A DNA stretch of 64,000 bases from Morchella semilibera (lineage: Eukaryota; Ascomycota; Pezizomycetes; Pezizales; Morchellaceae). Made by a program: the position numbers and the translations under genes. This document shows, one piece after another, positions 1,891 to 34,500 of this stretch (within the stretch, counting starts at the first letter, position 1; the number at the start of each line of letters is the position of its first letter). The stretch spans positions 3,100,001-3,164,000 of the forward strand of contig CM018604.1 of assembly GCA_009192285.1 (NCBI GenBank), in the 5' to 3' direction. The notes below the pieces were generated by a model, which was given only the letters and a program-made list of their open reading frames with translations, did not search any database and was not told where the DNA came from.

Positions 1891-3231
1891 CTAGCCTTCA
1901 TATTTCCAACCAGGTGGCATCTCTAGCCTCTTCATCTCTCTTTGGGCTCGACGAGACTGACTGTTAAGAGTCTCCTCCTTACGCTTCCTTTTCGATCTAG
2001 CCGCCTGCTCTTCCAGTTCATGCACTTTGTCCTGCCAAACCTTGAGTTGTTCTCCACAAGAAGAGTTAAGGTCTAGCCGAAAGGCTCTAGATGTTTCTTT
2101 GTAAAGTCTTGTTATCTAAAAAAAAAAAAAAAAGAGAGAGAGAGAGTTAGATGCCGCAAAACAACTAGCTACAACATAATCTCGATAGTAGCATATCGAT
2201 TGCCGTTCCCGAAGGAGCCGGCGTGGGCAAGTTTGTCAATATAACCATACCCCCGGCAGTGGCATACTATATGCCACTATTGAGACTCTATTGTACATAA
2301 TATGCTGGAGAGATTCATACCAGCTGGTTCCAGGAAGGTGTTGAGATATCATTAAAACATTCCCAATTCCCTATAGGCATAGGTAAAATAGTAGTTTCGC
2401 AAGGACCGCCACAGTTCTCCAAATTCAAGCCGGGTGCTTCATAATCGACAGCAGATGGTAGCTCACCGTGTGATACATCTTCTGGATATGTAAATGGTGG
2501 TGGTGAGGCTGGGGGTGGGGGTGGGGGTAGAGATGGAGATCGGAGTGGAAGTGGAAGTGGAGATGGTTGATCATGGCGAATATCCGGTTCTTCTGGCTTG
2601 TTAGCAAGTTGGGCTTTTAACTCTTTACAGGAAAACCCAGGGCCCACCTCTCTCATATATTCTAACCATGAAGCGTGGTTCACTGGATACGCTGACTGCC
2701 GAAAGGCGTGCTAGGTTATCAGAATTAAATGGCAAGTTCATCAGCAAACTCAACTTGTGACTGGAGTCTCCCAACAGTCTCCCAGGTCTCCTGAGAGTCT
2801 CCTGAGACTCCTGGATATTTTTTGAGTCTCCTGAGGCTCAGGAGGCATCAGGAGACAAATGAAGTCTTGCTGATGTTTTCCGTAGCCGTAGTAATGTTCT
2901 CTTCCTCAATGATTTGGAGGGGATTACTGCCCGTGTCGTTATCAGGGTGAATCCTAATCTGAATCCATTGCTGATACGCACAGCAAGGCCTAATCAGACT
3001 TCACAACATTGTAAATTTCGCTCAAGCCTGTAATGTATTTACTCGAATTTCCTCCTCCAACATCACAGTTTTCCTCGAAACACGTTGAACTTGTAGGATA
3101 TTTAAACCCTTTCCATTTTGCGTAGAAGCGAGGAGCTTGTTGAGGAAACTAAGTGATCGACTCGACAGAGTTTTCCCAACACCGTTACAAGATAGAACGG
3201 TATCTACTAATGATGGGGTTTTTTGAGACAT
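1891..3231 (-). pseudogene. Unknown spliced gene, probably decayed, with a MITE inside
   Basis: I do not recognise this protein. The best part is the 3' end. A proline-rich exon (about 2683-2321) ends at a GTATGA donor. A 205-bp intron (2320-2116) with a long pyrimidine tract ends in TAG. A 74-codon final exon (2115-1891) is lysine/arginine-rich and probably forms a coiled coil (HELEEQAARSKRKRKEE). Upstream, 3231-3045 gives an ATG-initiated stretch, and 2965-2878 gives a frame with QIRIHPDNDTGSN that seems to follow a short intron. The 137-bp MITE at 2739-2875 lies between these blocks. The frames on its two sides do not join into one continuous model, so I call it a relic. It abuts the KDZ relic and could be its accessory gene, which is inference. 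Confidence 0.4.
2739..2875 (+). mobile_element. 137-bp MITE, copy 1 (full length)
   Basis: The ends are CATCAGCAA and the inverted TTGCTGATG. The interior is built from GTCTCCTGAG-type motifs that can fold on themselves. The insertion is flanked on both sides by TT (2737-2738 and 2876-2877). The length is exactly that of three other copies at 21625, 25335 and 32491. It has no coding capacity, so it must be mobilised by another element. Confidence 0.9.
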
Positions 3232-3489
3232 TTACGCATGTGAGTATACAGAAATATGCGAGCTTAGGGTGAATGAGCTCGGATGGCTGGTTGAGAGATG
3301 AATAGTGAGAGACGGTGGGGTGGATGGTGGGTGGATGGCAAATAGTTGATATTTTCTGATGAAGAGCTGGATCCTTGGCCTTAAAGGACTTGATATTATA
3401 CTATGTGCCAATAACGGTTCCACTCGCATGCTGAATCCTTTGAAGATTGCGACCGCCCTTTGCAGTAACCACAAAACGTACACGTTATA

Positions 3490-6407
3490 TCTTTTGAGGA
3501 GTTTAAAACCATCTCCTATCGCTATTGCAACTGTGGGAAGCAATGTGCTAAGCTTCTAGAGCAAGGCGTCTTTCCCTCATTCCCAGTAAGGCCACGGTTT
3601 GCTTTTGGGATTCCCTTTTTGGGATTATTCCATGGTTTATCAATGCGATGTTCTTCTAGCGGGTTAGCATTTGGGGAGAGCTGGAGAGATCTGTGGGAAG
3701 TTGAATACCTTCAAACACTCCCTAGTTTTTACAGAGAGGTAAGGGGCCTCTATATGGGTGTAAAGCACTATGTTAATCAGTACGAGATAGCTCAAAAACG
3801 TATACCATCGATGGAGGGCAGTAGTAAGCATTGCATCATCCAAGACTCTCAATGACTTACTAGTATGCGGTGAAACGATTCTAGAGGATCATATTCTAGC
3901 CAACATGTGTCCTTCGTGTTTCGCTTTTTCGGATAAGGAAAACGAAGAGAATAAAGTTGTATATGTTGCTTTGGATGGAAACATGTAGCACTCCCGCTAT
4001 AAAGACACACATTTTGAGTATGAAGAGCTTCCCGTTAAGTAGATACCATATATCCCAGAAATACCATTCATCTTCGTGATAAAGTGCTAAGGGCATTCAT
4101 TAATGTCGGAATCCGTCAATATAATCTTGCTTCAGTGTTGAACACTTCTCATCCTGTTGGTGATAGTGAAGGGCCATGCGGGCACAACTTCAAGGCTAAC
4201 GGTAATTGGTGGCGCAAGGAAAAGGAAGGTACGCAGCATCTTTAATTCAAGCAGCTACGTAGTACTAGTAGCTAAATCGCCCTAGGTGGGCATTTGCCAA
4301 GTCAACAAGCGTTAGACGAGACGGGGGTTTTTGGAATGTGTTGTAAGCATGGAATACTACTCCGACTTCTCAACATGTATAGCGGGGAGAGAGAAGCCCA
4401 TGCGTTTGCGATTCTAGAAGAGCTGCACCGGGAATGCAAGGATGCAAAGGAGCATTGTATATGCTACGATTTGGCATGTCACCTGTCCCCAGCTGTAAAG
4501 GTTTGTTAGCCTTCTTCTTCTACGAGGTATTCAATCATCAGTCAAATATGTTGAGCGAATCGCCAAGCATCATATCCTACATATTGCCGCAAAGTCAGCC
4601 CTCCGTGTAGGGAGATTTCATTTGTATGGTCACGAATATAGTTTCACAATACTATGGAATCCCTTACGAAGCATCGGCTGGGGGCAGATGATCAGGGAGG
4701 AAATAGAGACGTACTGGTCTCTGGCATCTCATCTGGTTTCTTCCGGAAGAGTGATGTCATCTCCTCGACGCACCCAGCGGCTTGACGAATACGTTCTTTT
4801 TAGAGCCAGGGATTCAAAACAATGTTTGGGATACCTCCTACGTCAAAGATATGAGAGGGCAAAATCTATTACTGTAGAAACAGGGAATCTGCTCGACAGT
4901 ATTCTGGGAACCTATTTGCCGAATGGTGATAAGATGACTATTGATTATTTAAAGAACCAAAGGCAACTTCAAGAGGATTACTTTAAAACCTATAGGAAGC
5001 CAAGGAAGGACGAATTAGAAATAGTATTCGCGTCCATTGTGGAGGAAGAAAGACAGGCTTATAATTGGATACTTCAGAGGTACATCCATCCATTACGGCC
5101 CACCCTACGTATTCACCCTCACTAATATCGTTGCACAATACCATCGAAGGGCACAGAGTCAGCCGGAGTGGTTACCTACCCATGCTCAAAATATTCGCTC
5201 ACTCACCTTCGAGGAGATGTTAGGCCAAAGACGCGGCGAGATATTGATTGCCAAAACACATCGACTAATGAAGTCACTTGGTCAACAACGCCACCCTGAC
5301 TGACTCCCCGGTGGTTCACAATATCTGAAGTACGAGGAGATATACAGGCGAAGGGAATTAGCCAAATTAAGTCAGAAGCTTGTACATGTTATAACATCAC
5401 GAAACATTCAACTTCATCAGATCCGGTCTAGGGTTCGAGGCTACAGAGATTCCTCGTGGCTTGTGAACCAGCTAAATAGCAAATGGACTCAGTTTGAGAT
5501 GGTGGTAAAGGCATATAATAAGGCTGCTGCAAAGCTTCGTGGTCGCGGAGAGGAAAAGCCCCCGCCCGTAACACTCAAAGATCTTAAAGAGAAAGGTGTG
5601 ACATGTGAGCTCATATGATATCTCGAAAGGAGCCCCGCAAAAGAGGATTGGGCTATGTTCCAGGAAGTGCGTGATGGCATTGACGCTATACTAAAGCAAG
5701 AGAGGGCCCATGAAGAGATGGTTCAGACACCACTGGAAGCACGGAGGGCAGTTGAATGGCTTGTGCGAGGGCTTGGCCTAATCATTTCAAAGATTGAGGG
5801 CTCCGACAATCGAGCAAACACGTTTGTTGTCAATTCATTATGGGATAGATTGAAAATGCTGGAAGGGTTGCTGAAGTGTTGCACGGGTATTATCCTTCAA
5901 GAAGACGATACGCGGACATTATTTGGTCAGTACAAGTCTGAGCCAAGATTCCGAACCCAAGTCTAATACCCGTAAGATATCAGAAGCCGGGTTAGAGCTA
6001 TCCCTTTCCTTCAGCACCCTTCAGTCCTTTCGGCCCCTTTAAGTCGACCCCCTTTAGTTCCTTCTTCAGGCCAACCCTCTTTACTTGCTACCGCAGTCAC
6101 TGAATTAGAACCTGAACGTATTCGTGGCGATATAAAAAGTAATGACGAGGACGATGAGGTAGAAAGCGGAGGTGAGGATTACCCTCAGGAGGATGAAGTT
6201 TTGGGGGATCTGCTCTGGAACGGTTTATGTGTCTTGGAACGCAAGGAGGAAGAGTTACAGATGAGAAAGAAACGGGCTGCTCTGAGGGCAATACGAAAGC
6301 AAAAAAAGCCTTTGGACACTACAGATTTAGGTTCGCTCGGCTCAGATTTTGATATAGATATATATAATGATCTCTTGACCAGCGACGAAGACGAAGAGGA
6401 TCTATAG
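3490..6407 (+). pseudogene. KDZ-type (Kyakuja-Dileera-Zisupton) DDE transposase relic
   Basis: Successive frames carry the landmark order of fungal KDZ transposases. An N-terminal YCNCGKQCAKLLEQGVFPSF block lies at about 3520-3590. A CPSCF...YVALDGNM block at 3908-3990 holds the first catalytic D. A GPCGHNFKANG block follows at about 4170. DETGVFGMCCKHGILLRLLN...GERE...CYDLACHLSP lies at 4316-4500, and a GHEYSFTILWNP...RRTQRLDEYV block at 4626-4790. Charged C-terminal frames run on at 5655-5966 and 6201-6407. The frame is broken many times. Directly after DGNM a TAG stands where the family usually has Gln, as a C-to-T change would give. I see no TIRs around it. It is not functional. Confidence 0.75.
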
Positions 6408-7083
6408 CGTGAATGTAAAACGCGTTGTTTATCTTACCACTCCTCTAGACTGGTGGTATCACTTTGAGGGTTAATGTTGAGCCACCACTACAATGGGATG
6501 AATTAATTTCTGAGGTAGTAGTTATATTTCCTGTACAACGACTCGCGATGGAGCTTCTGCACAACCAAAACCCTTAAAACATCAACCCCACCTCCCTTGG
6601 TGAGGGCCCTGAATTGACCTTCATATTCTTTACCTCTTATTCCGCTAATTAGAGGCTGTAGTATACGTATGGTTGCAATGTTTCTAACAAGATCGATCTA
6701 CCATACTGCCGTGCGCACTTACATGAACCTGTATGAATTCATATGAATTCGTGTTGGCACATAAGATCGGAACTAAACGGTAGACGTGTTTGCGAGGGAG
6801 TGACACTCAAGGGGGTGGGGTATATGGTTCGTTACCTTCCACAGGCCTAGGGCAATGAATGTGGGTAGTATTTACAAATTGGTTTATATAGTACCCGCAA
6901 GCGCTGTAACGGGGAGGCCCCCACCCTCGTGACTATATGGGCATCGGTCCCCACCCGCCCCTTTCTAGGACGATACCGAGCACGTTGCATATACCCTGTA
7001 CTAAAGGTTTTATAACCACTCATAGTTTCCGGGCCGCCGGGCTTTATAGCAAGCAACTCGGAATATTGTACCGGTACCTCAAC
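6408..7083. other. Intergenic, no gene seen
   Basis: I find no supported coding frame, RNA gene or clear repeat boundary here. A short palindromic GAATTCATATGAATTC occurs near 6735. Confidence 0.6.
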
Positions 7084-7192
7084 CATCAGCAAGCTTTACC
7101 ATTTGTGACTGGAGTCTCCTGAGTCTCCTGACAGTCTCCTAAGTCTCCTGAGAACCCGGTAATCTCCTGAGATTTGTAAAATCTTGCTGATG
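7084..7192 (+). mobile_element. MITE of the 137-bp family, shortened copy (109 bp)
   Basis: It begins CATCAGCAAGC and ends TTGCTGATG, with the same GTCTCCTGAG motifs. The central part is diverged and 28 bp shorter than the full copies. It is flanked by AC on both sides (7082-7083 and 7193-7194), a duplication that is not TA. Confidence 0.8.
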
Positions 7193-7564
7193 ACGATGGG
7201 CCGAGGGGATACAAATTTATATGAATTACAGGTGCCGGAGTTTCCCTGATCTAGCTCTGGAGCACTGAGCATAGCGAGGATTTTTTTTGGGGTGTGTACA
7301 AAATAGAATTAATAGGTGCCAAGGATTTTTTAAACGGGGAGACTCCACCATATATGTGCACTGGCATAGGTTTTGTGGAGCCTCCAGGAAAATAAAAAGC
7401 TATACAGGGGGGACTCCACCATATCGCGATCAGTGTTATACACTGAAAAGAAAAATAGAAAACAGTATTAACATTTCCTACTCATACGTGATCATGTGAA
7501 GAGGTATGAACGCACGTGCAAAGCAATATATGTACATGTATATTGGTCAGTCCTAATTGAATCG

Positions 7565-7925
7565 TGACGACGGCTTCGAGGGAGAGGGCGTTAATTATAT
7601 ATTCTGTTCATATGAAGACATATGGGCTTATACAGTAAGATATTATATATATATAAGTTAGCCTCGTATCGTCGCCTAACCTCAAGCAACGGCGGCATCG
7701 AGGGAGAGGACGTTAATTATTACCTGGAGTGTCCTATATTCTGTTCATATGAAGACATATGGGCTTATACAGTAAGATATTATATATATATAAGTTAGCC
7801 TCGTGTCGTCGCCTAACCCTTAAGTGACGGCGGCGTCGAAGGAGAGGATGTTAATTATTATCTGGAGTATCATATATTCTGTTCACATGAAGACATATGG
7901 GCGTATATGTAGTGGGATGTCTAAC
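7565..7925. repeat. Tandem repeat, about 123-137-bp unit, two full and one partial
   Basis: Units start near 7567, 7690 and 7827. Each contains CGGC..TCGA.GGAGAGG..GTTAATTAT, then ATATTCTGTTCATATGAAGA and GTTAGCCTCGT.TCGTCGCC. The third unit decays after ATGGGCGTATA. No reading frame crosses it. Confidence 0.85.
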
Positions 7926-8376
7926 ATATTGCTTTGTACAATTGTATAAAATTGGCTTTTGAGCTCTACAAGTTATTTACTATACATCTATGATATAGAT
8001 AGATATATTTTGTTCATATGTGATCATATAAAGGCACTTGAGTACATTCAGGGAACTTACGAAATGATATAACTTAAACAGTGCGGCGATACATAAAAAA
8101 AAAGGCGCTCGGAAATGATTTTTTAAATCGTCGTCCCCCAGGTCCTTGCGAAGACGTTTTGGGCCTGGTTTAGGGTTACGGTGACTAATCACCCAATGAC
8201 TGCTGGCTGGATAAGCTTACGCCCCGTCATATGACTCGTTGACCAACTTCCCGCTTATCCACCCGCGTATGCCGTTGGTCTGCGTTAAGTGCAGGATACT
8301 ACCAGCCACATGTCCTAACCAAGGCTTGGCTAACACCCACACCCCCAGTTTCGTCATACCTCCGGGAGCGCTTCTA

Positions 8377-10363
8377 CAGTATCCGGTAGAATTATTGCAA
8401 AAACAGGTGTTAGCGAGTGCTGTGGGGCTGCAAAGGTGGCGAGTGCTGTGATGGGGTGAAGTGGGACCTCACTGTGAAAAAGGTTTTTTTCACGGCCTCA
8501 ATAGTGGTTAACGGTCAGTGGCTGACGGTTTCCGGAATGAAAAAACAGAAGAAAAAGATGTAGTATAAAAATCACGGGCGTACTTGATTAACAAGTACGA
8601 CCATCATTCTTACAACATGGTAACGATAAGGACAGAACATGTCAGCTACAAAAAGAGATGTTATGTCCAGGCACTCAGATATTCTGGCTAGACATTTCAA
8701 CGGATTGCGGACGATCAAGGCCTTGCAGTCTCTACCGTATGGCATATCTGACATTCCCCTGCCACTCCGCAAAGAAACAATAGATGTGGACGCCCAGTCA
8801 AAATTGATACACCTATACGCCGTCGACTTGTATTTGAAGCAACTGCTACAGCTCTAACGGGGCAGGGTCGGATCAGGGACGAAGCGGGGTAATTCCACGG
8901 GCGGAGACAGGGCAGGGTCGGCTCAGGATGCACCCGAGGCGAGGCAGGTTCAGGTTCAGGTTCAGGTTCAGGGACAAGGCGAGACAAGAGGGCCGAAGCC
9001 AAAGTAATATATTGCTAACGGAAAGAAGACGTTGCCTAGAGAGGCAAAACATAGGAAAGAACGAACACTATATATACAACTTATCCCCTCGCACCGATAA
9101 CTAATGCCATAGAATCCCATAGAAACTCTTACATTCTCGTATCACCCGTACTATTCCCAATAACCCCAATTCTATCCCGTCACTACCCAATCCTTTCTAG
9201 CACTTACATTCCATTCCCGAACTCCTTCCTAATCCTCCATTCTACTTCCGACATCGACCGATACTATCCAACAACCCTGTTCCGAAGACACCTTAGCGGC
9301 AGGCGAGGTGCAGGAGGCGGAGCTGTGATAACAGCTGAATCCCGAAGAAAACCCTGGTCAGAAATTGCAAATGACATAGGTATTGAAGCCTCTGACAAAA
9401 CTCTACGTTCTGCATTCGCCAAAGAAGGTTATCACCGCCGTATTGCTCGAAAGAAGCCATTCATGAACAAAAATCAGAGAAACAGACGGTTCCAATTTGC
9501 CCTTGAACACCATCACTGGACTGAAGAAGATTGGCAACGAGTAATCTGGACTGATGAAAGTTTTATTTGGCTGAGTGGTTCATGCAGAAGGATATTTGTT
9601 ACTAGGACAGTTGAAGAAACCTGGATCGACGATTGTATTGCCCCTAAATTTGCAAACGAGGATTCAATCATGGTTTGGGGGGGAATTTTAGGTGCAGGTG
9701 GTAGGAAAATACTCGTCATTTGGGAGAGAGATGATTGGGGTACTATTACAGCAAATACCTACTGCAATAATATCTTGATACCTCATATCCAACCCTTTTG
9801 GTTACGGGAAAGTCAGAGAATTGGTCAGTGGTTGTGGTTGGTTGAAGACAACGCACCAGCTCATAGAGTAAGGTCAACCCAAGTAAGTACACCTCTGTAT
9901 CTGCACCCGCTACCATCTCTACCCTTTTGCTTTTTCTTACTAACTCCTAATAGCATGTGCGGGATGAACTCAGAATTCCTACCCTGAACTGGCCTGCATC
10001 ATCACCTGACCTAAATCCCATTGAGAATATTTGGAGTATTTTGAAGGGCCGGCTCAATGATAGTTCCAGAAGACAAAGACCTAGGGGTAGAGCAGCGGTT
10101 AGGGCAGCAATCTTAGAGGAATGGAATCTTCTTTCAGAGGAGGAGATTACCAGATGTGTAAGCAACATGCCAGAGCGTATAGAGGCAGTAATTGCTGCCA
10201 ATGGCGGGCACACCAGGTGGTAAGATACATAAGGGTTGCGACAGAATAGAAAATACATTCACTCGTTCATTCATTCATGTCCACCACTCAAATTTTGATA
10301 CTCGCTAGGCTTTTTTAGTGTGCTCGCTAAACCCTGTTTTCGCAATAATTCTACCGGATACTG
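8377..10363 (+). mobile_element. Complete Tc1/mariner (DD34E) transposon
   Basis: The two ends are inverted repeats of about 44 bp starting CAGTATCCGGTAGAATTATT (8377-8420 and 10320-10363), with four or five mismatches, mostly transitions. Both ends are flanked by TA (8375-8376 and 10364-10365), the standard Tc1 target duplication. The element is 1987 bp and encodes one transposase at its 3' half. The 5' 940 bp are non-coding as far as I can tell and include a GGTTCA hexamer array at 8945-8980. The structure is complete, but the start of the transposase frame is uncertain, so activity is unknown. Confidence 0.92.
9325..10223 (+). CDS. Tc1-type DDE transposase, one intron
   Basis: Exon 1 runs from at least 9325 to 9882 and exon 2 from 9954 to 10223. 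The 71-bp intron between them (9883-9953) has a GTAAGT donor, a TTACTAACTC branch site and a TAG acceptor. The catalytic triad is visible: D in VIWTDESFIW, D in LVEDNAPAH, and E in NPIENIW. Splicing places exactly 34 residues between the second D and the E, which gives a DD34E enzyme. An N-terminal helix-turn-helix-like block (WSEIANDIGI...TLRSAFAKEGY) precedes the core. The frame stays open upstream of 9325 for at least 35 codons with no good ATG, so the true start may lie in another exon or be lost. Confidence 0.85.
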
Positions 10364-10365
10364 TA

Positions 10366-10881
10366 AGCGTAACGTATTCTTCACCATTAGCTTTCTTTTA
10401 CTAAATGTAGTTTAGCAGGTGGCCTTGGCAACCCCCCAAGACCTTGCGGTATCAGGCTAAGTGTTCTACCGAAGAAAAAGCTTACTGATCGGAACGATTA
10501 CCGAAGATAGTGGAGTACGGACAAGTGCAACGGTCACGCCTAGCGCCCGGCGGAAATCTATCCGACTACATGTATCTTTACTACATGTAAGTGCCTATCC
10601 GAACTACATGTAGGTAACATCACGGTCGAAAGGAAACAGACCTATGTGGGATCGGCGCACATCCATGCTGTTATCTGTCTGTGCTTGCCCCGCAAAACGT
10701 ACCTTCCACACTTAGGTGGGGCGTAGTTAAGTACCCGTGATGTTTTACCCCGGATAATGATTACAGATGAAGACGCGGGAAGCTTAAATTGAGGGTTTCC
10801 CACCAGTTTTTCTCCGATTCCATGCTTCAAGCGCCCCCCTAAATTACATTCTATAAAATTTGTATCACGACGGCTTGAGCC
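10366..10881. other. Intergenic, upstream of the permease
   Basis: No gene is seen. TACATGTA palindromes occur at about 10566, 10583 and 10606. The 5' leader and promoter of the permease must lie in the last few hundred bases, but I see no clear TATA box. Confidence 0.5.
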
Positions 10882-13160
10882 ATGACCGAGTTAAATACCC
10901 ACGGGTTTTCTCTTGACGACAAGGAGGATCAAAAACCAGCAGAATTTATCGACGATATTGAGCCAGATCCAGACGCCGGTCTGAGTGATGAGGAAAGAGC
11001 GCGGATTGTGAGATAACATACCTTAGCGCTTTGCACCCAGTGAAATTACCAAATTTCTTATAAGCTCTGAGTCTTTAGGACCGGGAATTGGTGAGAAAAT
11101 TAGATATTCGATTGATCCCTTGGTTGTGTATTCTCTACCTGGCTTCATTCTTAGACAGTGAGTCGACCCCCCGTAAATTTAGCCAGTTATCAATAATTTT
11201 TGAACTCCTGCTAATTGGGTACTCCAGGAACCAATATTGTAAGCTATTTTATTATTGAACTAATACACTAGTGTACTTCATCAGTTATAGCCTCTAGTTA
11301 TTCATGAAACGGACTTGTACTAACCATATTTGAAAAGGGAAATGCCAAAATCGAAGGTCTAGTAACAGATTTGAACATGACTGAAGGTCAATATAATGCG
11401 TGCCTCACGATATTTTTTGTGTCTTATGTATGCTCCCTTTGCTTAACACTACTACTTTTACTGACTCCAAATTAGTCAGTATTTGAACCCGTCAGCAATA
11501 TACTTCTCAAACGAATGAGGCCAAGTATCTACATACCTCTCATCATGGTATTATGGGGTCTTTGTATGACATTCATGGGCTTTGCCAAGAACTTTTCGGG
11601 CATGATGGCTGCAAGATGGTGAGTTTTCAGGATGATCCCCAGACGATAGTACTTCCCACTCTTCGTTCCTTATCTAACATTCTAACAGGTTTCTGGGTTT
11701 AACGGAAGCTGTAAGGTCCATTTCCTGGATGATACATAGTTGTATAAGTACTTACCAAATATTTCTGCCTGAGTCATTAGGGCCTTTTCCCGTATGTCAA
11801 CCTGTTGCTAGAGGTGGACCACCCAACTTGCTAACGTCCCCAATAGAGGTGTCAATTATTACTTGTCATGCTGGTATAAGAGGCGTGAGTTCGGAATTCG
11901 AGCTGCTATTTTTGTAAGTGTTCATTTATATTCATTTGCCGCCACCAGAAATCTAATTTTGCTATAGTTTTCCGCTGCTGCTGTGAGCGGTTCTTTTGGT
12001 GGACTCCTTGCTGCGGCCATTTCAAGGATGGACGGCATCGGCGGAATGAGGGGCTGGGCCTGGATATTTGTATGGTAGCTTAGCTCCTCTATAATTCAAT
12101 TACTGACCGAGTCTTTTAGATCCTTGAGGGTATCGCAACTATCTTTATAGGCGCAGCCTCGTTCTGGCTTGTAGTCGACTTTCCTGATGATGCACAATTC
12201 TTGAGTGATCAAGAGAGAGCGCGCGTGATCCGGAGGTTGAAAGAGGATCAGCAAAGTTCCGCCGGCCACGAAGACTTCAAGATGACATACATGTGGGACT
12301 CCCTGAAAGATTGGAAAACTTGGACTGGAATGTTGATTTATATGGGCGTTGATGGTAAGACAAACCCGAAGACCCCCAAGCGTTACCTTACCTAGTGTCA
12401 ATGTATAACATCTAATCAATATTATAGGAGCTTTATATGCATTCTCGCTATTCCTTCCTTCAATCATTGCCGAGCTTGGCTATTCATCTACCCGTGCACA
12501 GCTGTTGTCGGTGCCCCCGTATGCTGCGGCTTGTGTCCTTACTGTGCTTATCGGTTGGGCGGCTGACCGCACCAACAAACGTGGGATTTTTAATATTGGG
12601 GTCTCTTTTCTTGGTATTATTGGTTTTTCTATTCTCCTGGCATCCAGAAATGCAGCTCTGAGCTACGTTGGTGTTTTTCTCGGCGCTCTGGGCATATATC
12701 CATGCATTCCAAACACAATTACCTGGGTGAGCAATAACGTAGAAGGCGTTTACAAGAGAGGTGTTACCTTGGGATTTGTTATTGGTGTGAAATATCTCAC
12801 CCTTGGATGTCCGTGTCCCAAGTTTTACTAACCTGTGATTAGGGTGGGGAAATTTGAATGGTGTCATGTCTTCGAATGTTTATCGAGGGCGAGATAAGCC
12901 TCACTATACTCTCGGGCATGCCATTGTACTTGGATACCTTGCTATTGGTCTCTTGGGTGGCTCAATCTTGAATTATGTACTTCTGCAGCGTGAGAATAAT
13001 AAGCGGAGGAACGGAGAAAGGGATGTTTGGGCCCAAGGGTTAGATCAGAGGCAGCTTGAAGCACTTGGTGACAAGAGGTAAGAGAGACTCTAGCCCAAGC
13101 TCAGTCGAAACTGTTACTAATTTTTGATATCATAGGCCTGATTTCATTTACACGATGTAA
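10882..13160 (+). CDS. ACS-family (Dal5/Tna1-like) MFS permease, 13 exons, 500 aa
   Basis: The exons are 10882-11007, 11079-11157, 11228-11238, 11338-11427, 11476-11618, 11689-11710, 11781-11791, 11847-11913, 11968-12069, 12120-12354, 12428-12784, 12843-13077 and 13136-13160. All introns are GT-AG and the joined frame is open for 501 codons. The order of motifs is typical of the anion:cation symporter family: DRELVRKLDIRLIPWLCIL, then LDRTNIGNAKIEGL, TEAGLFPGVNYYLS and GWAWIFILEG. The cytoplasmic loop contains LSDQERARVIRRL, and the second half has GWAADRTNKRG and ends at LGDKRPDFIYTM. It should have 12 membrane segments and import an organic anion such as allantoate, nicotinate or a vitamin with protons. 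The substrate cannot be read from sequence. Exons 3 and 7 are only 11 nt long. Confidence 0.9.
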
Positions 13161-21624: not shown

Positions 21625-21761
21625 CATCAGCAAACTCAACTTGTGACTGGAGTCTCCCAACAGTCTCCCGGGTCTCCTGAGAGTCTCCTGAGACCCCCGG
21701 ATATCTTTTGAGTCTCCTGAGGCTCAGGAGACATCAGGAGACAAATGAAGTCTTGCTGATG
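21625..21761 (+). mobile_element. 137-bp MITE, copy 3 (full length)
   Basis: It is flanked by TA on both sides (21623-21624 and 21762-21763). It sits inside a minisatellite unit whose uninterrupted neighbours read GTGTATAGTGGGTATAG. That gives a direct empty-site comparison: exact removal of 137 bp plus one TA restores the repeat unit. Confidence 0.93.
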
Positions 21762-22246: not shown

Positions 22247-22756
22247 TGGTGCGATATCTTCGCCGCCGGAATCGTGATCAATATCAGAGGATATCTCGTA
22301 AGGTGTGTTGGTGACGTTATATCTAGTATCAACATCCATTGGGGCGTAGTTACGCTCGTCCCCGATCTTATTTTTACCCTTCTTGATTTTGGGCTCCCTT
22401 AGGATGAAGTGCTCGAGCTTCACATTATCCCAGCACTTTGATTGGCCCAATCTATCCCAGTATAGGATTAACGCTTCACGATTCCATTTTGCGGAGTTTT
22501 TATCCTCGATATGGAATTTCATAAACATGCAGAAATTAGCGTATGCATCTGTGGTGGAGATTAGCTGGATATTCAAAAGGATGTGGATGGATTATCGTAC
22601 TGTGTAGGAAGGTGTGGACTCTTTTGGGGCACTTCCCCAAATCGATAATCGGCTCGATCCAGAAGAAAACTGCCAAGAGATTCTCTACGCTGTATAGCGT
22701 GTTGAAGTGCTCCCTAATCGTCTCTTCATCCCGACTAGTTTTGATTGGCTTACCCC

Positions 22757-23795: not shown

Positions 23796-26079
23796 ATGTC
23801 TCAGCAGCAGCAGCTACCGTACGAGGAAGACTTGCTGATGTCAGATGCAGTCGCATTGCGGGATCAGCGTACCTTCATGGCGCAGACTCAGCAGAGACAC
23901 ATCGGCACAACCAGGGATACGCCAATAACACATCTCTGGGAGTCAACGAGAGAGGCGAGATTACCTGGCCAGAGACGGCTCAGGGACAGGAGGGAGACCT
24001 CCCCTTACCGAACGCCAACTCGAGGGTCACACTTGACTCGCAGGCCCTCCGAAGTCAGGGAGGAAGCCGAAGACAGCGACGAGTCATCGCCCCCTCGCAG
24101 CACACACGATCCCTTCCTTACCGCTACGGTCCGCAGGGAAGTGCTGAGGCAAGGAGGACAGGTCGTCCAGGGACTCCACCAAGGCGTGAACGAGCTCGCC
24201 ACGCGTACCCAGAATATACCCGCCATCGAGGAGCTTATCTCCCGTCACGAGCGCCGAATCGAGGAGAGCAACCGGGCCCATCACGCTCTAATCAGCGAGC
24301 TACAGGCCAAGTTCGTCGTGAACGACGAGAATACGGTGCGGATAGCTACCGCCCTCCAAGATATGAACCTCCGGCTGCAGACGCAAGCGGGTACGCAGGC
24401 CCAGCAACTCAACGAGGTCGTGACCCGCCTCGCCAACACCGCCACAGCCCAACACCAGCGCCAGGAAGAGCAGACTCAGGCCCTGGTTACCTACGTCAAC
24501 CAACTTAAAGAAACTCAGCCTGCAGTGATCATACCCGCAGAAGTCACTGAGGCCCTCCAACGAATCGAGACGGCCAAAGCGGCGGATCAGGAGGAATTGA
24601 CTAGGGAAAGGGAACGTGCAGAGCAAATGTTGGCCGCCACCCAGGAAGGTATGAAAACCCTCCTGGAAGCGATGAAGCGGGCCGCGGGGAAAAAAGGGAA
24701 GGGTAAACAGGCGGCAGTGGAAAGTGAGTTGGAGGAAGGAGGGCGAGTGCCGCCACCACCGCCAATCGAGAATGCGCCACCTCCACCAGCGGATCCAATT
24801 GTTGTGAGATCCCAGCACGGAAGTGCCCATGGAGGCCAGGGAGGCGGACGCGGAGGCAACGGTGGAGGACGAGGAAGGACTGGAGGTAGCAATCCAGACC
24901 CTTCGGACTCCTCTGACTCGGATGAGGATGAGAGAAGATGGAGAGCAGAGAGAGATCGCCGGAGACGGGCTCAACGGTGGGCAGAAATGCTACCTCCCCC
25001 GGTCACCAATGTTCCTGCTGCGGGAGAAACCCCAAAGCAAGCCAAGATCCCCTTCGCCGGAAAACCAGACCAAGACGTGCGGCACTGGATAGATCAGATG
25101 GAGATTCTGATCGACCTACAGAAGAAGGTCCGATGGGATGATAAGACCAAGATTCTGTGGGCGTCCCTCGAACTTCAGGGAAGTGCCGCTAGCTTCTGGC
25201 GAAATTACAAGGAAAGGCTCAGTGTAGAACCTGGGCTCGGTACTTGGGAGGCTTTTAAGAGGGAACTGCGCACCCAGTATGGTAATCGTACCAGTCAAGA
25301 ACAGGCCAAGCAAAAGATGGATAGGCTCCGTCAACATCAGCAAGACTTCATTTGTCTCCTGATGTCTCCTGAGCCTCAGGAGACTCAAAGAATCTCCAGG
25401 AGTCTCAGGAGACTCTCAGGAGACCTGGGAGACTGTTGGGATACTGCAGTCATAAGTTGAGTTTGCTGATGAAACTGGCCCAATCGACGATTACATCAAC
25501 GAGATGCAGAACCTCGAATGGGACGCACAGGTAGGGCCAATCGTCATGAAGTCTATGATCCTTGCAGGAATAAACTCCTCCTTGGAAACAAGACTCTCGG
25601 CGGCGATCGAAGAACCATCCAGCTTTCCGGCCTGGTTAGCCTGGGTACGCAAGGTCGGGCGCAAGGACGCTGAGGTAAAAGCCCGCAGAGAGATACTGCG
25701 TGGCAAAGAACGGGAGAAAACCCGGGAACCTCAGGCCTCCAAACGCCGACAACGCTCCAAGGAACGGCCAAGAAGGCAACAGGCAGAGACGACGCACCGT
25801 GAGCCCCAGTCTGGAAGCCTTGGTGCTACCCAGGACGAGAAGGACCGGTGGCAAAAGGAAAATAAATGCCTCAGGTGCGGTCGAGAAGGTCACATCGCTA
25901 AGAATTGCTTTGCGACCAGTAAAGTTAGGTTTACAAGTGAGTCGAGTGGGGGAAAACGCAAACGGGAAGAAACTCCTTCCGGGAGAAAGGAGCCTGGAAA
26001 GGGGGGTGAGAAAAAGAGGAAACAAGGATCGCAGGCGGAAGCATTTAGGTCTAGGATTACGTCACTGGAGGAAGATTAA
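23796..26079 (+). pseudogene. Gypsy gag, interrupted by a MITE
   Basis: The first part (23796-25334) has a long coiled-coil-like Gln/Glu/Ala-rich region, then a basic patch and a proline and glycine-rich linker. A capsid-like block follows (DVRHWIDQMEILIDLQ). The MITE at 25335-25471 supplies an in-frame stop at 25458-25460. The frame resumes after it and carries the zinc knuckle CLRCGREGHIAKNC (CX2CX4HX4C) at 25867-25908 in a basic tail. Exact removal of the MITE and one AA duplicate brings the two parts into one frame. Confidence 0.88.
25335..25471 (-). mobile_element. 137-bp MITE, copy 4, inside gypsy gag
   Basis: Same ends and length as the other full copies, in reverse orientation. It is flanked by AA on both sides (25333-25334 and 25472-25473), not TA. 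Because gag returns to frame when exactly the element and one AA are taken out, this boundary call is firm. It is younger than this gypsy copy or its direct parent. Confidence 0.95.
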
Positions 26080-26495
26080 AATTGTTATCGGGTTTTTTTC
26101 ATAAAGTTATTTCTTAGAGTTATTATTTTTGGATATTTATACCGCATGGCTATGCGGAGATTGTATGGGCTACACGGAATTTAATTGGTCTTCTACGAAA
26201 AAATGCCTCAACAGTCACATGTGCACGGGAAATCCCTATTTATCAAGAGCAACCGTAACCGAAAAGCGGGACATGTGGATATGCTGCGGGAGGAGCGTAT
26301 GACGCACCCATAGGCCACGACCCACATAATCTGTCGAGCAATAGTAAGTTAACACATGCCAGTATAAAAAAGGATTACCCCGCACTTAGCTATAAAAGGG
26401 CACTACCTCCCACCTCTTCGAAGAACATAAACAACCTTCTTCATCGACCTCTACCATACAACCAACACCTCTCATACCCATTGCATACTTTCACA
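26080..26495 (+). promoter_or_regulatory. Apparent internal promoter between gag and pol
   Basis: The 416 bp between the gag stop and the pol ATG are non-coding. They contain TATAAAA at 26363 and 26391, followed by a pyrimidine-rich leader and CACAATG around the pol start at 26496. This resembles an ordinary fungal promoter and leader. Whether it is used is inference. Confidence 0.45.
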
Positions 26496-27224
26496 ATGTC
26501 CTCCTCAACTCAAGAAACACGCCTGGAGATAGAAATCTCTTGGGTTAACCAAAAGACCAACAAACACTTCACTCATGTCGTCAAAGCCCTCTTAGACAGC
26601 GGTACCGAAGACTGGATCATGTCCTGGGACTGCGTCAAAAAGGCCGACATCCCAATCCAGGATCGACCTAAAATCCTCCTCATTAAGCAAGCCGATGGCA
26701 CACGCATGCCTCACTCCGGCACTCACACCACCCAACCCCTCACACTCCGGATCGGTAGCCACCTCGACAGGCTAGTCACCTGCGAAATCGGTACCTTTGC
26801 TGGAGAAGACCTTGTAATACCACATCGATGGCTCACAGAGCATCAACCTACGATACATTGGGGACAGAACCTAGTCACCTTCAATAGTATCCAGTGTCAG
26901 ATTAAGGGATGCATGATGACAGACTTGGATATGTACGAAGAGGGTTGGCAAGAGAAAGTGGTCAGGCTTCTCAGACACATGCCAGACCCCGAGCCAGTAG
27001 TATCCATCGAGTCGCACCCTTTCTGGTCACGCGGGTCGGGAAGCGAGACTCTCGCTAGTGCTATCCCGGCAGAGTTCCAAGACTACGCAGACGTGTTCTC
27101 CTTAGACGGAGCAGGCCGCCTGCCGGAACATGGACAGTGGGATCATACGATCCCTCTGATAGACGGAAGCCAGCCTCCGTGGGGTCCGATCTACCCGTTG
27201 AGCCCCCGGAACAGAAAGCGCTGA
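26496..27224 (+). CDS. Gypsy protease and start of pol
   Basis: The first ATG is at 26496 (MSSSTQETRLEIEISW). The aspartic protease motif is ALLDSGTEDWIMS, followed by ADGTRMPHSG and the flap region. The end of the frame already shows the start of the reverse transcriptase (GQWDHTIPLIDG, PPWGPIYPLSP). It then runs out of frame at a run of five C at 27203-27207 and stops at 27224. Confidence 0.85.
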   Translation: MSSSTQETRLEIEISWVNQKTNKHFTHVVKALLDSGTEDWIMSWDCVKKADIPIQDRPKILLIKQADGTRMPHSGTHTTQPLTLRIGSHLDRLVTCEIGTFAGEDLVIPHRWLTEHQPTIHWGQNLVTFNSIQCQIKGCMMTDLDMYEEGWQEKVVRLLRHMPDPEPVVSIESHPFWSRGSGSETLASAIPAEFQDYADVFSLDGAGRLPEHGQWDHTIPLIDGSQPPWGPIYPLSPRNRKR

Positions 27225-30028
27225 GGGAATACCTGGACGAGATGTTAGCGGCAGGTAAAATTGTCCCGTCTTCGAGCCCAGCAGCGGCACCAATCCTTTT
27301 CGTCCCCAAACCAGATGGGTCATTACGGTTATGCGTCGACTACCGCGGACTAAACGCCGTCACAGTCAAGAACCGTTACCCCTTGCCACTCATGACTGAG
27401 CTGGCAGATTCGACGAAGGGCGCTCTCTTCTTCACCAAGATAGATCTCAAGAACGGTTATAACCTAGTAAGGATCGCCGAAGGAGAGGAGTGGAAGACAG
27501 CTTTCCGAACCAAATATGGCCATTTTGAATACAAGGTGATGCCCTTCGGCTTGACGAACGCGCCAGCAACGTTCCAAGCGATGGTCAACACGATATTCAA
27601 GGATCTGTTAGATCAAGGCCTAGTGGTATACTTGGATGATATCCTGATATATTCCAAGTCTAGAGAAGAGCATATTGCTCTGGTGCGCAGGGTGTTGGAG
27701 CGGCTACGACAACACCATTTATTCGGCAACCTGAAAAAGACGGCTTGGTTCCAAACGGAGGTAGAATTCCTAGGATTCAAGCTATCAGGTACGGGAACCC
27801 AGGTCTCACCAGAAAAGGTGAAGGCTATCACCGAGTGGCTGGCGCCAACCAAGGTGAAGGAGCTTCAGTGCTTCTTGGGATTCGCCAACTTCCTCCGACG
27901 GTTCATCTACGGCTACTCAGAAGTGTGTAGACCTATGACCGATCTCCTGAAGAAGAACGCCGTCTGGAAATGGGGTCGGGGGCAGCAGGATGCTTTTACC
28001 GAACTCAAGAAGAGATTCACCACCGCTCCAATCCTCCGACACTATGACGAACATCGCCAGGCTGTCCTTGAAACTGATGCCAGCGACTGGGCTGAAGGCG
28101 CGATCCTATCCCAGGTGTTCGAAGATGGTATGTTGCATCCGGTGGCATATCACTCTCGCAAGTTCAACGAGGCAGAGGTCAACTACGAGATCTATGATAA
28201 AGAGATGCTCGCGATAGTTTCTGCTCTCTTGACTTGGAGACACTGGCTGGAAGGTACGGACATACCTATCCAGATATATTCTGATCACCAAAACCTTCAG
28301 TACTTCACAACAACCAAGAAGCTGTCAAGAAGACAGGCTCGGTGGGCCGAAAAGATAGCACCTTTTCGCTTCAAGATCCACTACCGACCAGGCGACAAGA
28401 ACGGCAAGCCCGATGCGTTGACACGGCGTCCGGAGTACGCTCTGGAAGGGGGAGTAATTCGCGAGCAACCCGTAAAACAGCTGCTCACAATAGAACAATT
28501 CGCAAGAAAGTCAAGCACCGAGGTAGCATTCGGTAGCGAAATTGTTAGTAACCCCCATGCGGAACGGACACTATTGGATCAGTGGGTACACATACCGGGT
28601 GTAGGTCTGCCTTCGGCGCTACAGGACTGGTATGAGCAAGGAAGTCAATGGACACGCAGAGTTGTTCCGGATGAGCAATCTGATGGCGAGTGTCCGGAAG
28701 ACTGGTGGACCCGACAGACGTCGAGCTCAGGAGAGGACACGCTGCATGAAAAGTGGGATCCCGATCAGAATACGGCCACCCACGATGGACGTTGGGTTGT
28801 GCCTGGGCATGCGGTCAAGCAAGTCATTGAAGATCATCATGACCGACCGGTAGCGGGGCATCTAGGGAGGGATAAAACCCTTGAGTTGATTGATAGGAAT
28901 TACTGGTGGCCTGGAATGACCACGGACGTCGCTAGGTACGTTCAGACCTGCGATGTTTGCCAGCGAGCAAAACAGCGACGGCGTCACCTATCGTTACCTC
29001 AACCCCTGGAGTTAGCGACTACGCCCTGGAACGACATCTCAATGGATTTCGTAGTAGAAATGCCAAAGGAGAAGTCGGGATACCGTAACGTATTGGTTGT
29101 CGTAGACCGTTTTAGTAAGATGGCCCACTTCATCCCAATGACGGGTATCAATGCGGAACAGACCGCACAGGCCTTTGTTAAGGACATATGGCGCTTCCAC
29201 GGACTACCTCGATCGATAGTATCAGACAGGGGTACCCAGTTCGTGTCGGCTTTTTGGGCGGCAGTTACGGAACGACTAGGGATTCGTAGAAGACTCTCAA
29301 CATCGTTCCACCCCCAAACAGATGGCCAAACCGAGAGGACAAACCAGCATATGGAGTCCTACCTTCGCGCATTTACGGCCGGTACGGGTAAGAAGTGGAG
29401 AGATCTCCTTCCTATCTGTGAATATGCCTACAACAACGCGAAGCATTCCTCTACCGGACAGTCACCCTTCTATGTCAACTATGGGTTCCACCCTCGGACA
29501 GACTGGCCAACGGACGCAGAACTCGAACGACTGGATGACAACGGGAATAATTATCTCGATGAAATCCTATCGGCCCATGAGATGGCACGGGAGACACTTC
29601 AGAAGACGTACGATAAAATGGCGTCACGACCCGGACCAGCAGTCCAGCAGTTTATACCAGGACAGAAGGTTCTTTTAGACACTAGGAACCTCGGTAGTTA
29701 CAACAAGTGGTCAGATAAGTTCACAGGACCCTTCGAAGTTCTCGCCAAAATTGGCAACCGAGCGTACCGCTTGGATCTTCCGGTAGAATGGAAGATACAC
29801 AACGTGTTCCATGAGATGTTGCTTCGGCCCTATCGTGAAGATTCGGATCCGAGTAGGCAACAGAACACCCGTAAACGACTCGCAACACCGGAACCACAGG
29901 AAGCCTTGGCTGATGAAAACGCCAAACCCGTCACTAAGACTCACCCTCATACTCGTAGTCAAGGAAGCCAGGATCTTGCATCGGGAGTCAGACGGACTCA
30001 AAAGAGACGGCGGTTGCTTGAAGAGTAG
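27206..30028 (+). CDS. Gypsy reverse transcriptase, RNase H and integrase
   Basis: The frame is open from 27137, but homology begins at the C run near 27206. Reverse transcriptase shows LRLCVDYRGLNAVTVKNRYP and VYLDDILIYSK (about 27623). RNase H shows ETDASDWAEGAILSQ and YSDHQNLQYF. Integrase has an HHCC finger (GHLGRDKTLEL...CDVCQRAK, about 28855-28970) and DDE residues in SMDFVVEMP, VSDRGTQFVSA and DGQTERTNQ. A GPF/Y module follows (FTGPFEVLAKIGNRAYRL). The C terminus is a short basic tail without a chromodomain. Reaching this frame from the protease frame needs a -1 shift. Confidence 0.93.
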   Translation, partial: PEQKALREYLDEMLAAGKIVPSSSPAAAPILFVPKPDGSLRLCVDYRGLNAVTVKNRYPLPLMTELADSTKGALFFTKIDLKNGYNLVRIAEGEEWKTAFRTKYGHFEYKVMPFGLTNAPATFQAMVNTIFKDLLDQGLVVYLDDILIYSKSREEHIALVRRVLERLRQHHLFGNLKKTAWFQTEVEFLGFKLSGTGTQVSPEKVKAITEWLAPTKVKELQCFLGFANFLRRFIYGYSEVCRPMTDLLKKNAVWKWGRGQQDAFTELKKRFTTAPILRHYDEHRQAVLETDASDWAEGAILSQVFEDGMLHPVAYHSRKFNEAEVNYEIYDKEMLAIVSALLTWRHWLEGTDIPIQIYSDHQNLQYFTTTKKLSRRQARWAEKIAPFRFKIHYRPGDKNGKPDALTRRPEYALEGGVIREQPVKQLLTIEQFARKSSTEVAFGSEIVSNPHAERTLLDQWVHIPGVGLPSALQDWYEQGSQWTRRVVPDEQSDGECPEDWWTRQTSSSGEDTLHEKWDPDQNTATHDGRWVVPGHAVKQVIEDHHDRPVAGHLGRDKTLELIDRNYWWPGMTTDVARYVQTCDVCQRAKQRRRHLSLPQPLELATTPWNDISMDFVVEMPKEKSGYRNVLVVVDRFSKMAHFIPMTGINAEQTAQAFVKDIWRFHGLPRSIVSDRGTQFVSAFWAAVTERLGIRRRLSTSFHPQTDGQTERTNQHMESYLRAFTAGTGKKWRDLLPICEYAYNNAKHSSTGQSPFYVNYGFHPRTDWPTDAELERLDDNGNNYLDEILSAHEMARETLQKTYDKMASRPGPAVQQFIPGQKVLLDTRNLGSYNKWSDKFTGPFEVLAKIGNRAYRLDLPVEWKIHNVFHEMLLRPYREDSDPSRQQNTRKRLATPEPQEALADENAKPVTKTHPHTRSQGSQDLASGVRRTQKRRRLLEE

Positions 30029-30109
30029 TCCTGATACCTTTCCTCGCGTATGGGTTTTCCCACAGGGTTTTTACTATACAGAGGTTTTAACGGTCGGGGA
30101 CGACGTCTT

Positions 30110-30123
30110 AGGAGGGGGAGTAG
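30110..30123 (+). other. Polypurine tract of the gypsy element
   Basis: AGGAGGGGGAGTAG lies directly before the 3' LTR, the expected site for plus-strand priming. Confidence 0.85.
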
Positions 30124-30703
30124 TGTTATAGGATATCCGGGGTGTTGTGTTAAGGGTGTTATAATGGGCATGGATCTAGAGTGATGAGTCGTGAAGAGAG
30201 TCGGTCGGGTAACCAACAAGGGTCTTGGTTAAATACAATGGGGTTGCGCTATCCATGAGGGGTGAGTCGCAATAGCATGGGCTTGTTGGCTTACACGTTC
30301 TATTGCATGTGGGAGACTCTCCCTGAAAAAGCATAGAAGCGGGGTAGGGTGCTTAGCACCTCTAACGTCCTATTGTATTGACGCCTTGGCTCTTGGCAAG
30401 TTACACGGTCGCGGATAGTATGGGTGGTTTTAGGAAGCACCGCCGATGCAAGGAATCGGACAGGGTTGCGAGGATAGAATGTTATGGAAGGAATTATGGC
30501 GTGATCTTAGATAGAAGACTCGTCTAGGCCTTGAGCCACTCATGTATAAATAGAAGCCTGATTGCCCTCGTCTTGTTGGAATCATCATCCTTCAAGAACT
30601 CAAGCGAGCGGAATCCGGTTTATCAAATTACAAAGTTTAAACGCTACAGAACTATTGCTTAGCAAAAGCCATATCCCAATACTCTTCGGGATATCCCTAA
30701 ACA
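30124..30703 (+). repeat. 3' LTR of the gypsy element
   Basis: 580 bp, apparently identical to 22757-23336 at a constant offset of 7367. The ACCCC duplication follows at 30704. Confidence 0.95.
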
Positions 30704-31238
30704 ACCCCCTTTCTGTACGGCGGCTTCCACGTGCCTCCTAGCGTAATCTAGTGTACTGTGTTTGGTTTGGTACACCACGTTAAGCATACGTTTCCTGATT
30801 ATGGCATGTTTGTAGGGCTCTTTGCTCTTATAATCCTCCCCAAAGACATCCGCGATTAGTGAATCCGGGGATTGCACCGTGAAGTAACGAATCATATGCT
30901 TTTTGGCGTTTTTATACAGGATGTTGATTTTGAGTTGCTCTCCCGTGTTGAACGAATCATCATTCTTCTTGGGCTTCTTCCTAGCAGGCTCCTCTTGCTT
31001 AATGAGCGATTGAATAAGCTCCAGAGACTCTGAAGGACGCTCTGTAGGTCCCGCGAGCTGATCCCACATATTAACCAAAGCCATGATATCACGTGTACGC
31101 CAGAATCTTGTAGTCTATGTATTATCGTTAATCTCCGTTGATTACTAAGAGAAGAGGGTGCCTACATACACTAATTTTGATAGTCCTCTCGATAATCTCA
31201 ACGGGATCCTTCTCCGATTGGCTCATATTTGGCGGCAT

Positions 31239-31505
31239 CGCTGATTAGGCAGATAAGGTGGTGGAGTTGATGATTAGGCTAAACGTGGTGGAGGTGGAGG
31301 AGGCACTAGTCGGTGGAGGAAGCCGAGGAGGCACTAGTGAGGGGTAAGCAGAGATCTCACCCCTAACCCTTAGTGCAGTTGCTTTTGCTGAGGTAAGCAA
31401 ATGCACTAAGGGTTAGGGATATGGACTTAGTAAAATCTCTGTCGACTCCCACCCATCTTCATCTTCATCAACTCCACCACTCATCTTCATCGACTATCGC
31501 CACAT
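31239..31505. promoter_or_regulatory. Bidirectional promoter region with a 24-bp-arm hairpin
   Basis: This segment separates the start of the accessory gene (31238, minus) from that of the transposase (31506, plus). At 31361-31384 and 31395-31418 an inverted repeat (CCCTAACCCTTAGTGCA...TGCACTAAGGGTTAGGG) has 23 of 24 paired positions around a 10-bp loop. It could be a transposase binding site or fold in RNA. Confidence 0.6.
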
Positions 31506-34500
31506 ATGAGCTCACGTGATATCCAGAATGCTTTATCTAACGCGAAAAGGACGCCTATTCATAGGAGAGAGCCTTCAGCTCAACGTCGACGAAGGGAAGC
31601 TTTAGAGCGTCACAATTCACAGCTTCTAGAAGCATACTCCCCCTTTCCGAACGTTGAGGAGGTTGAAGAGGCTGGAGAGGCTGAAGAGGCTGATTATACA
31701 CCCGCAGACGTCGAGATTGAGCCCGATTCAGAGCCTGAATTAGAGCCATATGTAGAAGATATCGTGCCCCTAGAGGGCCAGGATATATGGACGCCTCAAT
31801 TGGATGATCAAAACCGCTGTTTGGCGGCGGCGGCGGAAGTGGAGATGGCTATTACGGCGGAGACGGAGGTGGGGACGGAGGCACTATATGCGGGCCCAGG
31901 GCTTAGTAAGGTGGCTTGGGAAGCTCCCAAATCAGGACGCCCACTCAGTGCTTTCCTCTTAGCTTTTGCCGTATGGTGTGATAGGATTAACCTCTCTAGG
32001 GCAGATTATTCAGCCTTCTACGAGGTGGTGAAGCTTTCTTACGATAATCGTGAGTCGTGGGAAGAGCTTCCTAAGAAGTTGGATACCCTGCAGCATATAT
32101 ATCAATCGCACCTCCCTGCACCTCCTATATACGAAAGAGATATTGATCTATGCTTAGATAAGCAACCTACTGGCCAATCAGGTGCAGGAAAGGTCTATCA
32201 TTTCGACCAGATTCACCTGACGGAGACTATCCTGCAATCAAAGGAGCTTACTAAGCATATGCACTTCGGTATGGCGGAGTTGGTTGATCAACCATCGGAA
32301 CTATGGCATGGGGAGGCTTGGGCGGAATTCATACGGACGTGTAGTGGGCAATTCGCTCTGTACCCTGACGGTCAAACCCTCTGTTTACTAGTGTTTTGAA
32401 CCATGTTGACCGAGTTTGACAGTTAAACCGGTCTTTCCTTCGGATATCGTGCTTTACAGGACGCCAGAGACCGGCACGACGATCCACCTACATCAGCAAA
32501 CTCAACTTATGACTGCAGTCTCCCAACAGTCTCCCAAGTCTCCTGAAAGTCTCCTGAGACTCCTGGAGATATTTTGAGTCTCCTGAGGCTCAGGAGACAT
32601 CAGGAGACAAATGGAGTCTTGCTGATGTAGGGCGGATTCGCAGTGTCTACCAGGACCTACGCCAAGCTTCCCCCCTTCCGGCGCCGATTATCCTATATAT
32701 TGATCAATTAATTAGATATGCCGACCTAGCACTTGATATTCAGGGACTAGTTGATTATCATTACCCTACGGAGTGCTTTTTGATTGAGGGCTTGGCACCT
32801 ACACTGATTCTAGCCAATCAAATCATCTCTAGATATCAAAATCTCCGGTTTGATAGAGACTACCGGGAACGTAGGGAAATCACCGAAGAAGCCGAGCTCC
32901 GAAGCACCCAGGAAGCCGCCCGGGAGAGGGTCGCAGAAGCACGCCGGCAAGTACGTCGGGAAGTCGGTAAGCGTGTGAATAAGCCCCGGAATCGGGCACC
33001 AAACCGAGGCACGGGTATGCCCCCTCCACCTATACCAGGGACTGCGTACCATGCGTTTATCACAGTACGGCGGGTAATCGATGTCTCAAAACGCTCAATT
33101 AGGGCTGTCCGCCTTACCCATCCAATCAGAGGCGAGCTCGAGATAGATATATACGGTCGAGATATGCTAGAGAGGTGTTTTGTATCACGTGCAGGAGATA
33201 GGCCGATCAGATGCATGCCCCAAATGACGTTTATCGACGGTTTTGGGCTCTACCGGAATATGTATAGGTCGTTGACGGGTAAGCCCCAAATACCCCTCCC
33301 TTTGGGTATCTCATGGTTTCGGCTACAACTCAAATACCCCCCCCTTTGGATATCTACTGATTGGATATAGGGATATATATGATACCGTCGAATCTACCCC
33401 TTAGAGAGAGAAGTCGATTGGTTAACGTCTTCCCGCTGACACTGGGACCCCACGGCAGTGGGTTAGCCGACGTTTTGGGGTGCTTGGAAGCTTCTTCGAA
33501 GGCTCTAGAAGGAGGGTTAACCCTGCTTATTCCCGACGAATCAGGCACCGGGAACCTAATCGAAACATTCGTTTCCAGCCTTACGCTCGGATACCTCGGA
33601 GATATGCCACAGCAAAACGACTGCGCAGGCTTCCTACGGCATACCGCTCTATACGGGTGCCGAAGCTGCCGAGTCCTGAAGGCTATATACGGTGACCTGG
33701 ACTACGATATATCCAGCAAGGGTAGATATCATCACGAGACGTCGAAAATTAGAGCTCAAACGGCAACTATGCCCCCTTCTGTACAGAAGAAGCACCTTAA
33801 CTCGCTAGGAATCAGCGTACCCCCCCCTCCTGTTTTGAAGCTCGCTCCTGCGATAGATATATGTAGAAGCTTCCCAGCTGACCCACCTCACGCGGAGATG
33901 GCGGGGATTGGGCGCTTACTACAGGACTTGCTTATTCAAAACCTCCTCCTGCCCGCTGCCCGAGATGCATACGGGAATGCCTTCCGGACTATATCCATAC
34001 CCCTTGGGTGGGGGCGTGTCCAGAATCCGGTACGGCACAGAGGTTCATGGGATCTTAGTGAACAGACCAGAGCTTGCGTCTTGACACCAGTTTTACTGCG
34101 GAATCAGATGTCCAACCAATGGCTACACCCTACTCTGATACGAACCATCAAATCCCAATTCGGTACTGAGCTTCAGACACTTCCCCTCCGTAGGGAGTGT
34201 GATATGATAACCCTGGTATTCAGCCATCTAGCACAGGCATATTATATGCTCACGAAGCCATATACAAGTCCAGATATGGCGGCGGAGACGACGAGGTTGA
34301 TCATTCAGGTACGGAGAAGCTTCCAGAAGCTCGTAAGGTGCGCAATAATTGCCAAAAGGGTAGGCGGCGGCGCTAGGGAGGGGCGGCAATCGCGTGCCTC
34401 GTCGGTGGCTAGCAACCCCGTGGATGAAGCGGTACCTCAGGGAGCCAATCAAGAAGCCGCTAGGGACCTGGAAAAGTGGATTAACCGTCCAAATATCCAT

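Follow-up and report, generated by a model that had tools for sequence, protein, structure and literature searches.

High-copy 137-bp MITEs with a relaxed 2-bp target duplication in Morchella semilibera: a very probable non-autonomous PlavakaB-type family

Which transposase moves a family of miniature elements that duplicate two bases of their target, when these two bases are not always TA? The question is raised by a 64,000-nt stretch of the Morchella semilibera genome (GCA_009192285.1, contig CM018604.1, positions 3,100,001 to 3,164,000, forward strand), here called the window. Tc1/mariner and pogo elements are characterised by a 2-bp target duplication that is TA only, and a preliminary description of this DNA had pointed to a different transposase for the five MITE copies that it recognised. 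Its positions, lengths, ends and identical flanking dinucleotides, in whose list the 7084 copy comes last, are exact for all five copies, which are the following.

2739..2875, + strand: MITE copy 1, 137 bp, target site duplication (TSD) TT (2737-2738 / 2876-2877)
7084..7192, + strand: MITE copy 2, a related shorter form of 109 bp, TSD AC (7082-7083 / 7193-7194)
21625..21761, + strand: MITE copy 3, 137 bp, TSD TA, within a minisatellite of 42-bp units
25335..25471, - strand: MITE copy 4, 137 bp, TSD AA, inside the gag of a Ty3-type retrotransposon
32491..32627, + strand: MITE copy 5, 137 bp, TSD TA

All five copies have the termini CATCAGCAA / TTGCTGATG, and the copy at 25335 is oriented opposite to the other four. 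On both strands of the window, the 9-base end CATCAGCAA is matched 11 times versus 0.55 expected, a number reached in none of 100 shuffles; the termini of the five copies account for ten of these matches, and the remaining one (23832, - strand) has no partner. The four 137-bp copies differ from one another at 5-10 of 137 positions. Folded as single-stranded DNA, the copy at 2739 forms a long hairpin of -31.7 kcal/mol, which fits the expectation for a MITE; 200 shuffles gave -18.5 kcal/mol (sd 2.95), none of them as low as the real sequence.

A search of the genome (56.76 Mb in 23 contigs) with this same copy, as the preliminary description had proposed, revealed a high-copy family. It returned 964 candidates, 40 of which were scored, and among the 43 matches listed 40 cover 136-137 bases at 98-100% identity and the other three are partial, at 79-92%. 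With two mismatches allowed at most, the 25-base left end of the MITE is found 435 times in forward and 473 times in reverse orientation, that is, near 900 matches in which allelic contigs are counted twice where both haplotypes are present; the reversed control sequence has no match in the genome. In the contig pairs C9/C10, C12/C13 and C21/C22, features lie at near-identical coordinates, including two MITEs with the same spacing in C9 and C10 and identical transposase loci in C21 and C22, which makes it probable that part of the genome is represented in the assembly by both haplotypes.

The target duplication was read in the window and in 30 fetched loci, which are the best-scoring matches and not a random sample. 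Copies with inexact terminal 9 bases (including the matches for which L026 and L027 were fetched) and repeats of the same flanks were left out of the count, and L017 and L023 added nothing to it. Identical 2-bp flanks bound 38 of 42 distinct end-to-end intervals, while two arbitrary pairs agree by chance in about 6% of cases. The 38 duplications are TA (11), CA (7), TT (5), AA (4), TG (3), AT, AG and GT (2 each), and TC and AC (1 each), so that 27 are not TA. With strands pooled, TA is enriched over its 6.6% background in the window and CA/TG is mildly over-represented; CC/GG, CG and GC do not occur among the 38. Four intervals lack a 2-bp match: L006 at 1442 (196 bp) and L021 at 1250 (388 bp) join the ends of different copies, nested or adjacent to each other, and the true misses amount to two of 40 single-copy intervals (L008 at 1071 and L018 at 1501). 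L006 also presents a MITE within a MITE, a 137-bp copy (1501-1637) lying within another (1442-1717) with an AA duplication. Longer duplications were considered and rejected, as a longer match exists at just two of the 38 sites (3 bp in L024, 5 bp in L015) and the empty sites described below fit a drop of two bases only. The MITE duplication is therefore 2 bp, with TA preferred and not required. Flanks restricted to TA, or longer duplications, were the outcomes named beforehand as contrary to a relaxed duplication, and neither was encountered.

Empty sites lead to the same dinucleotides. The flanks of 39 sites at which they are equal were joined and compared with the window and the fetched sequence; when gaps were allowed, 13 of these sites had a related counterpart without the insertion. 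A stricter ungapped search (34 letters, up to four differences) included a register control: with two bases dropped, an empty site was recovered for 11 of 39 sites, and with 0, 1, 3, 4 or 5 bases dropped for none of the 39. Nine of the 11 are insertions at dinucleotides other than TA (AA, AG, GT, CA, TG and TT). The empty counterpart is perfect for L002 (TA) and differs at one position for L022 (TG), L025 (AA), L028 (CA) and L029 (TT). L006 at 1501 is also one of the 11; as its insertion site is within a MITE, further MITE copies serve as its empty sites.

Within the window, the preliminary description had reconstructed three empty sites, of which one stands clearly, one is well supported and one is weak. 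At 21625, the 42-bp minisatellite unit that the MITE splits is found whole in the neighbouring units, which thus provide the empty site. The copy at 25335 separates the capsid part from the zinc knuckle of gag, and the two flanking frames (538 and 201 open codons) are in phase with each other if 139 bases are subtracted. Its host, a Ty3-type retrotransposon with gag, RT, RNase H and integrase, occupies window positions 23796-30028, and the 120-bp left flank of the copy is itself multicopy: at least 40 matches to it were scored in the genome, and three of these, including itself, are at 100%. At 32491, 27 open codons on the left are in phase with a 246-codon frame on the right, and the reading-frame argument for this third site is weak.

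A larger element with the same ends and a transposase gene, the search for which had also been proposed, is present in the genome, and its inner sequence differs from that of the 137-bp copies. There are 128 matches to the Plavaka transposase (PF18759; CMCT/EnSpm), belonging to several Plavaka families. Thirty loci were fetched, and 14 of these (L071-L085 without L083) represent one family, 96.7-100% identical to L073. Its right end was read in the contig 2 copy, and the copies on contigs 3 and 1 have theirs at an identical offset; all three finish in ...GAATCTTGCTGATG. Beyond this GAATCTTGCTGATG/TTGCTGATG end the host sequence differs, beginning with TA... and AA... in two of the copies and being the interior of a MITE in the contig 1 copy, which sits inside a split 137-bp MITE. 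From the MITE ends and a 2-bp duplication, the left junction of this copy was predicted as the left MITE half up to TC followed by CATCAGCAA; the predicted sequence has exactly one occurrence in the 56.8 Mb, on the same strand, and delimits the following element.

C1:1925528-1936188: Plavaka element in the split MITE, 10,661 bp, with TC on both sides

The interrupted MITE is an old copy, since both its outer ends are degenerate. In ten Plavaka loci TTGCTGATG is also matched at position 1775, a candidate end that was discarded because it falls within the transposase match.

For this large family, a search with up to two mismatches located 43 left ends and 46 right ends in the genome. Twenty-four end pairs were matched by eye and both flanks were read for 20; the four left out are C10:722104-734210, regarded as an allele of C9, and three pairs with spans of 22-28 kb (C14:504850-529142, C19:1341502-1363611 and C19:1451047-1478789). 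A 2-bp duplication flanks 13 of these 20 pairs, which comprise the large family and its derivatives, and nine of the 13 are not TA (TA 4, AA 3, and one each of AC, CA, AT, GT, TC and AG); the seven pairs without a matching duplication perhaps result from wrong pairing or recombination. Fourteen pairs span 9.0-13.5 kb, with a duplication in eight. The six shorter ones (152, 294, 305, 326, 1,097 and 3,674 bp) have it in all cases except the 1,097-bp pair, so that it is present in all four derivatives of 152-326 bp. Among the matches listed, PF18759 is found in nine of the 14 long pairs, and seven of these nine are flanked by a duplication.

The copy at C2:1736376-1748077, examined here over 9,578 of its 11,702 bases, is a TA insertion with a clean empty site in a duplicate located about 500 bp from its right end. 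Two adjacent frames match PF18759 (E 2.4e-14 and 1.8e-51), and another five frames have no Pfam match above the family cut-off. The large element also contains CAGGAGA-rich units of about 101 bp, arranged in an array (L086 1-700), and, nearer its left end, an inverted counterpart of this array (L094); different array lengths may explain the length differences among copies. Two accessory frames, L086 945-2099 (-) and L087 6-785 (-), are 60% identical over 259 residues and have no Pfam match.

Taken at the level of sequence, the MITEs are very probably a high-copy non-autonomous family of PlavakaB type, moved by the Plavaka transposase of larger relatives; the assignment to PlavakaB is made from the termini, the length of the duplication and the presence of PF18759 in the larger same-end relative. 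The 137-bp copies are too short to encode a transposase, and because their ends are the same as those of a large transposon carrying the Plavaka transposase, they are most likely passengers of the latter, not a new kind of element. The PF18759 transposase would be supplied by the larger relatives elsewhere in the genome and would recognise the 9-10 bp end CATCAGCAA(G/A), probably aided by the CTCAGGAGA-type repeats just inside the end. It would then excise the MITE, presumably by cut-and-paste chemistry, and insertion through a 2-bp staggered cut would duplicate any dinucleotide, with TA over-represented. That the transposase of the particular Plavaka family read here acts on the 137-bp copies is something we infer.

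It is on this last point that the strongest alternative arises, as a variant within the explanation just given: the MITEs would be of PlavakaB type and moved by a Plavaka family other than the one read, for example that of L057-L059 or of L060-L069, which may be the true partner. This is a serious possibility, to which we grant somewhat less than an even chance. The coexistence of several Plavaka families in the genome speaks for it, as does the fact that the 137-bp copies and the family read have little in common beyond their ends, namely 9-10 bp at each end and 11 bp at the right end. Since only these ends and short inner motifs are common to both, the 137-bp copies are not simple internal deletions of the family read. 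Against this variant, the 109-bp sister copy at 7084 has 13 bp at its right end in common with the large element, and short CTCAGGAG-type inner matches are present in both the MITE and the family read. The motif CAGGAGA/TCTCCTG, picked after the sequences had been seen, occurs 4-5 times per MITE and six times in the rest of the window. In the large element, the internal array that makes up the first 700 bases of L086 contains it 18 times and the last 536 bases of the element three times, and it is lacking in the first 113 bases. A tentative idea is that short elements are cross-mobilised by the Plavaka transposase when all they have in common with its own ~11 kb element is the 9-10 bp end and an inner repeat of CTCAGGAGA type in scattered positions; we hold it to be rather less probable than its opposite. 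If true, the substrate would be recognised by a dispersed inner motif and not by a long inverted repeat, and the rise of a 137-bp element with unrelated inner sequence to ~900 copies would be explained.

Far less probable is that the MITEs belong to another CMCT-type transposase sharing CATCAG ends, such as Transposase_21 (EnSpm/CACTA). The genome does contain 25 matches to its domain, PF02992, but in none of these 25 loci (3.2-3.5 kb with 1.5 kb flanks, so that longer elements are possible) is the transposase match enclosed by paired CATCAGCAA/TTGCTGATG; in L047 a 137-bp pair lies beside the match, and L033 contains a single unpaired end. Finally, an origin from Tc1/mariner or pogo, with the non-TA pairs explained by chance or mutation, would account for TA being the commonest single duplication and above its background, but it is rejected as practically untenable by the majority of duplications that are not TA, by the clean empty sites of non-TA insertions and by the Plavaka transposase of the larger same-end elements, and the preliminary description was right in looking beyond these two groups.

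Comparison with known systems places these MITEs beside PlavakaB. A 2-bp duplication is shared with Tc1/mariner, pogo and the PHISTA elements, but theirs is TA and that of the MITEs is relaxed; for PHISTA, which is Harbinger-type, TA duplications are given in the portions of PMC12730594 drawn on here. In Marasmius oreades, according to the sections used of PMC8290104, about half of the DNA elements are KDZ or Plavaka, both of which are termed understudied, and non-autonomous families are classified by their terminal motifs or TIR and their TSD. Those elements resemble the present ones in being assigned to a superfamily by TIR and TSD within a Plavaka-rich genome; unlike here, the same sections do not state which of the non-autonomous families are Plavaka. 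Plavaka and, separately, non-autonomous elements or MITEs are mentioned in the parts consulted of PMC9674265 and PMC11075540, and in the literature on Plavaka and MITEs or non-autonomous elements, as far as main texts outside most subscription journals go, no described Plavaka MITE family was found. The 137-bp MITEs thus represent, within that literature, a new high-copy family whose ends and type of duplication are already in print for PlavakaB (PMC12730594). They provide a concrete high-copy non-autonomous partner for Plavaka with a well-defined, TA-independent 2-bp duplication and, given their fixed ends, a ready substrate for testing the Plavaka transposase.

In the passages available of the PlavakaB account (Kojima 2025, PMC12730594), this group has 2- or 3-bp duplications and the termini CATCA..TGATG. 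These termini are present in all five window copies and in the larger family, and the 2-bp duplication in 38/42 MITE intervals, 13/20 pairs of the larger family and the register-controlled empty sites. The larger same-end relative with PF18759 exists as well, its sharing with the MITEs being confined to the ends and short inner motifs. Whereas the PlavakaB families of those passages were placed by their transposases, the 137-bp copies are short, lack a transposase and number near 900. They have in common with PlavakaB the CATCA..TGATG termini, the 2-bp duplications, PF18759 in a larger relative and a fungal host, and a modest wider lesson is that fungal elements combining CATCAG ends with a relaxed 2-bp duplication point to PlavakaB.
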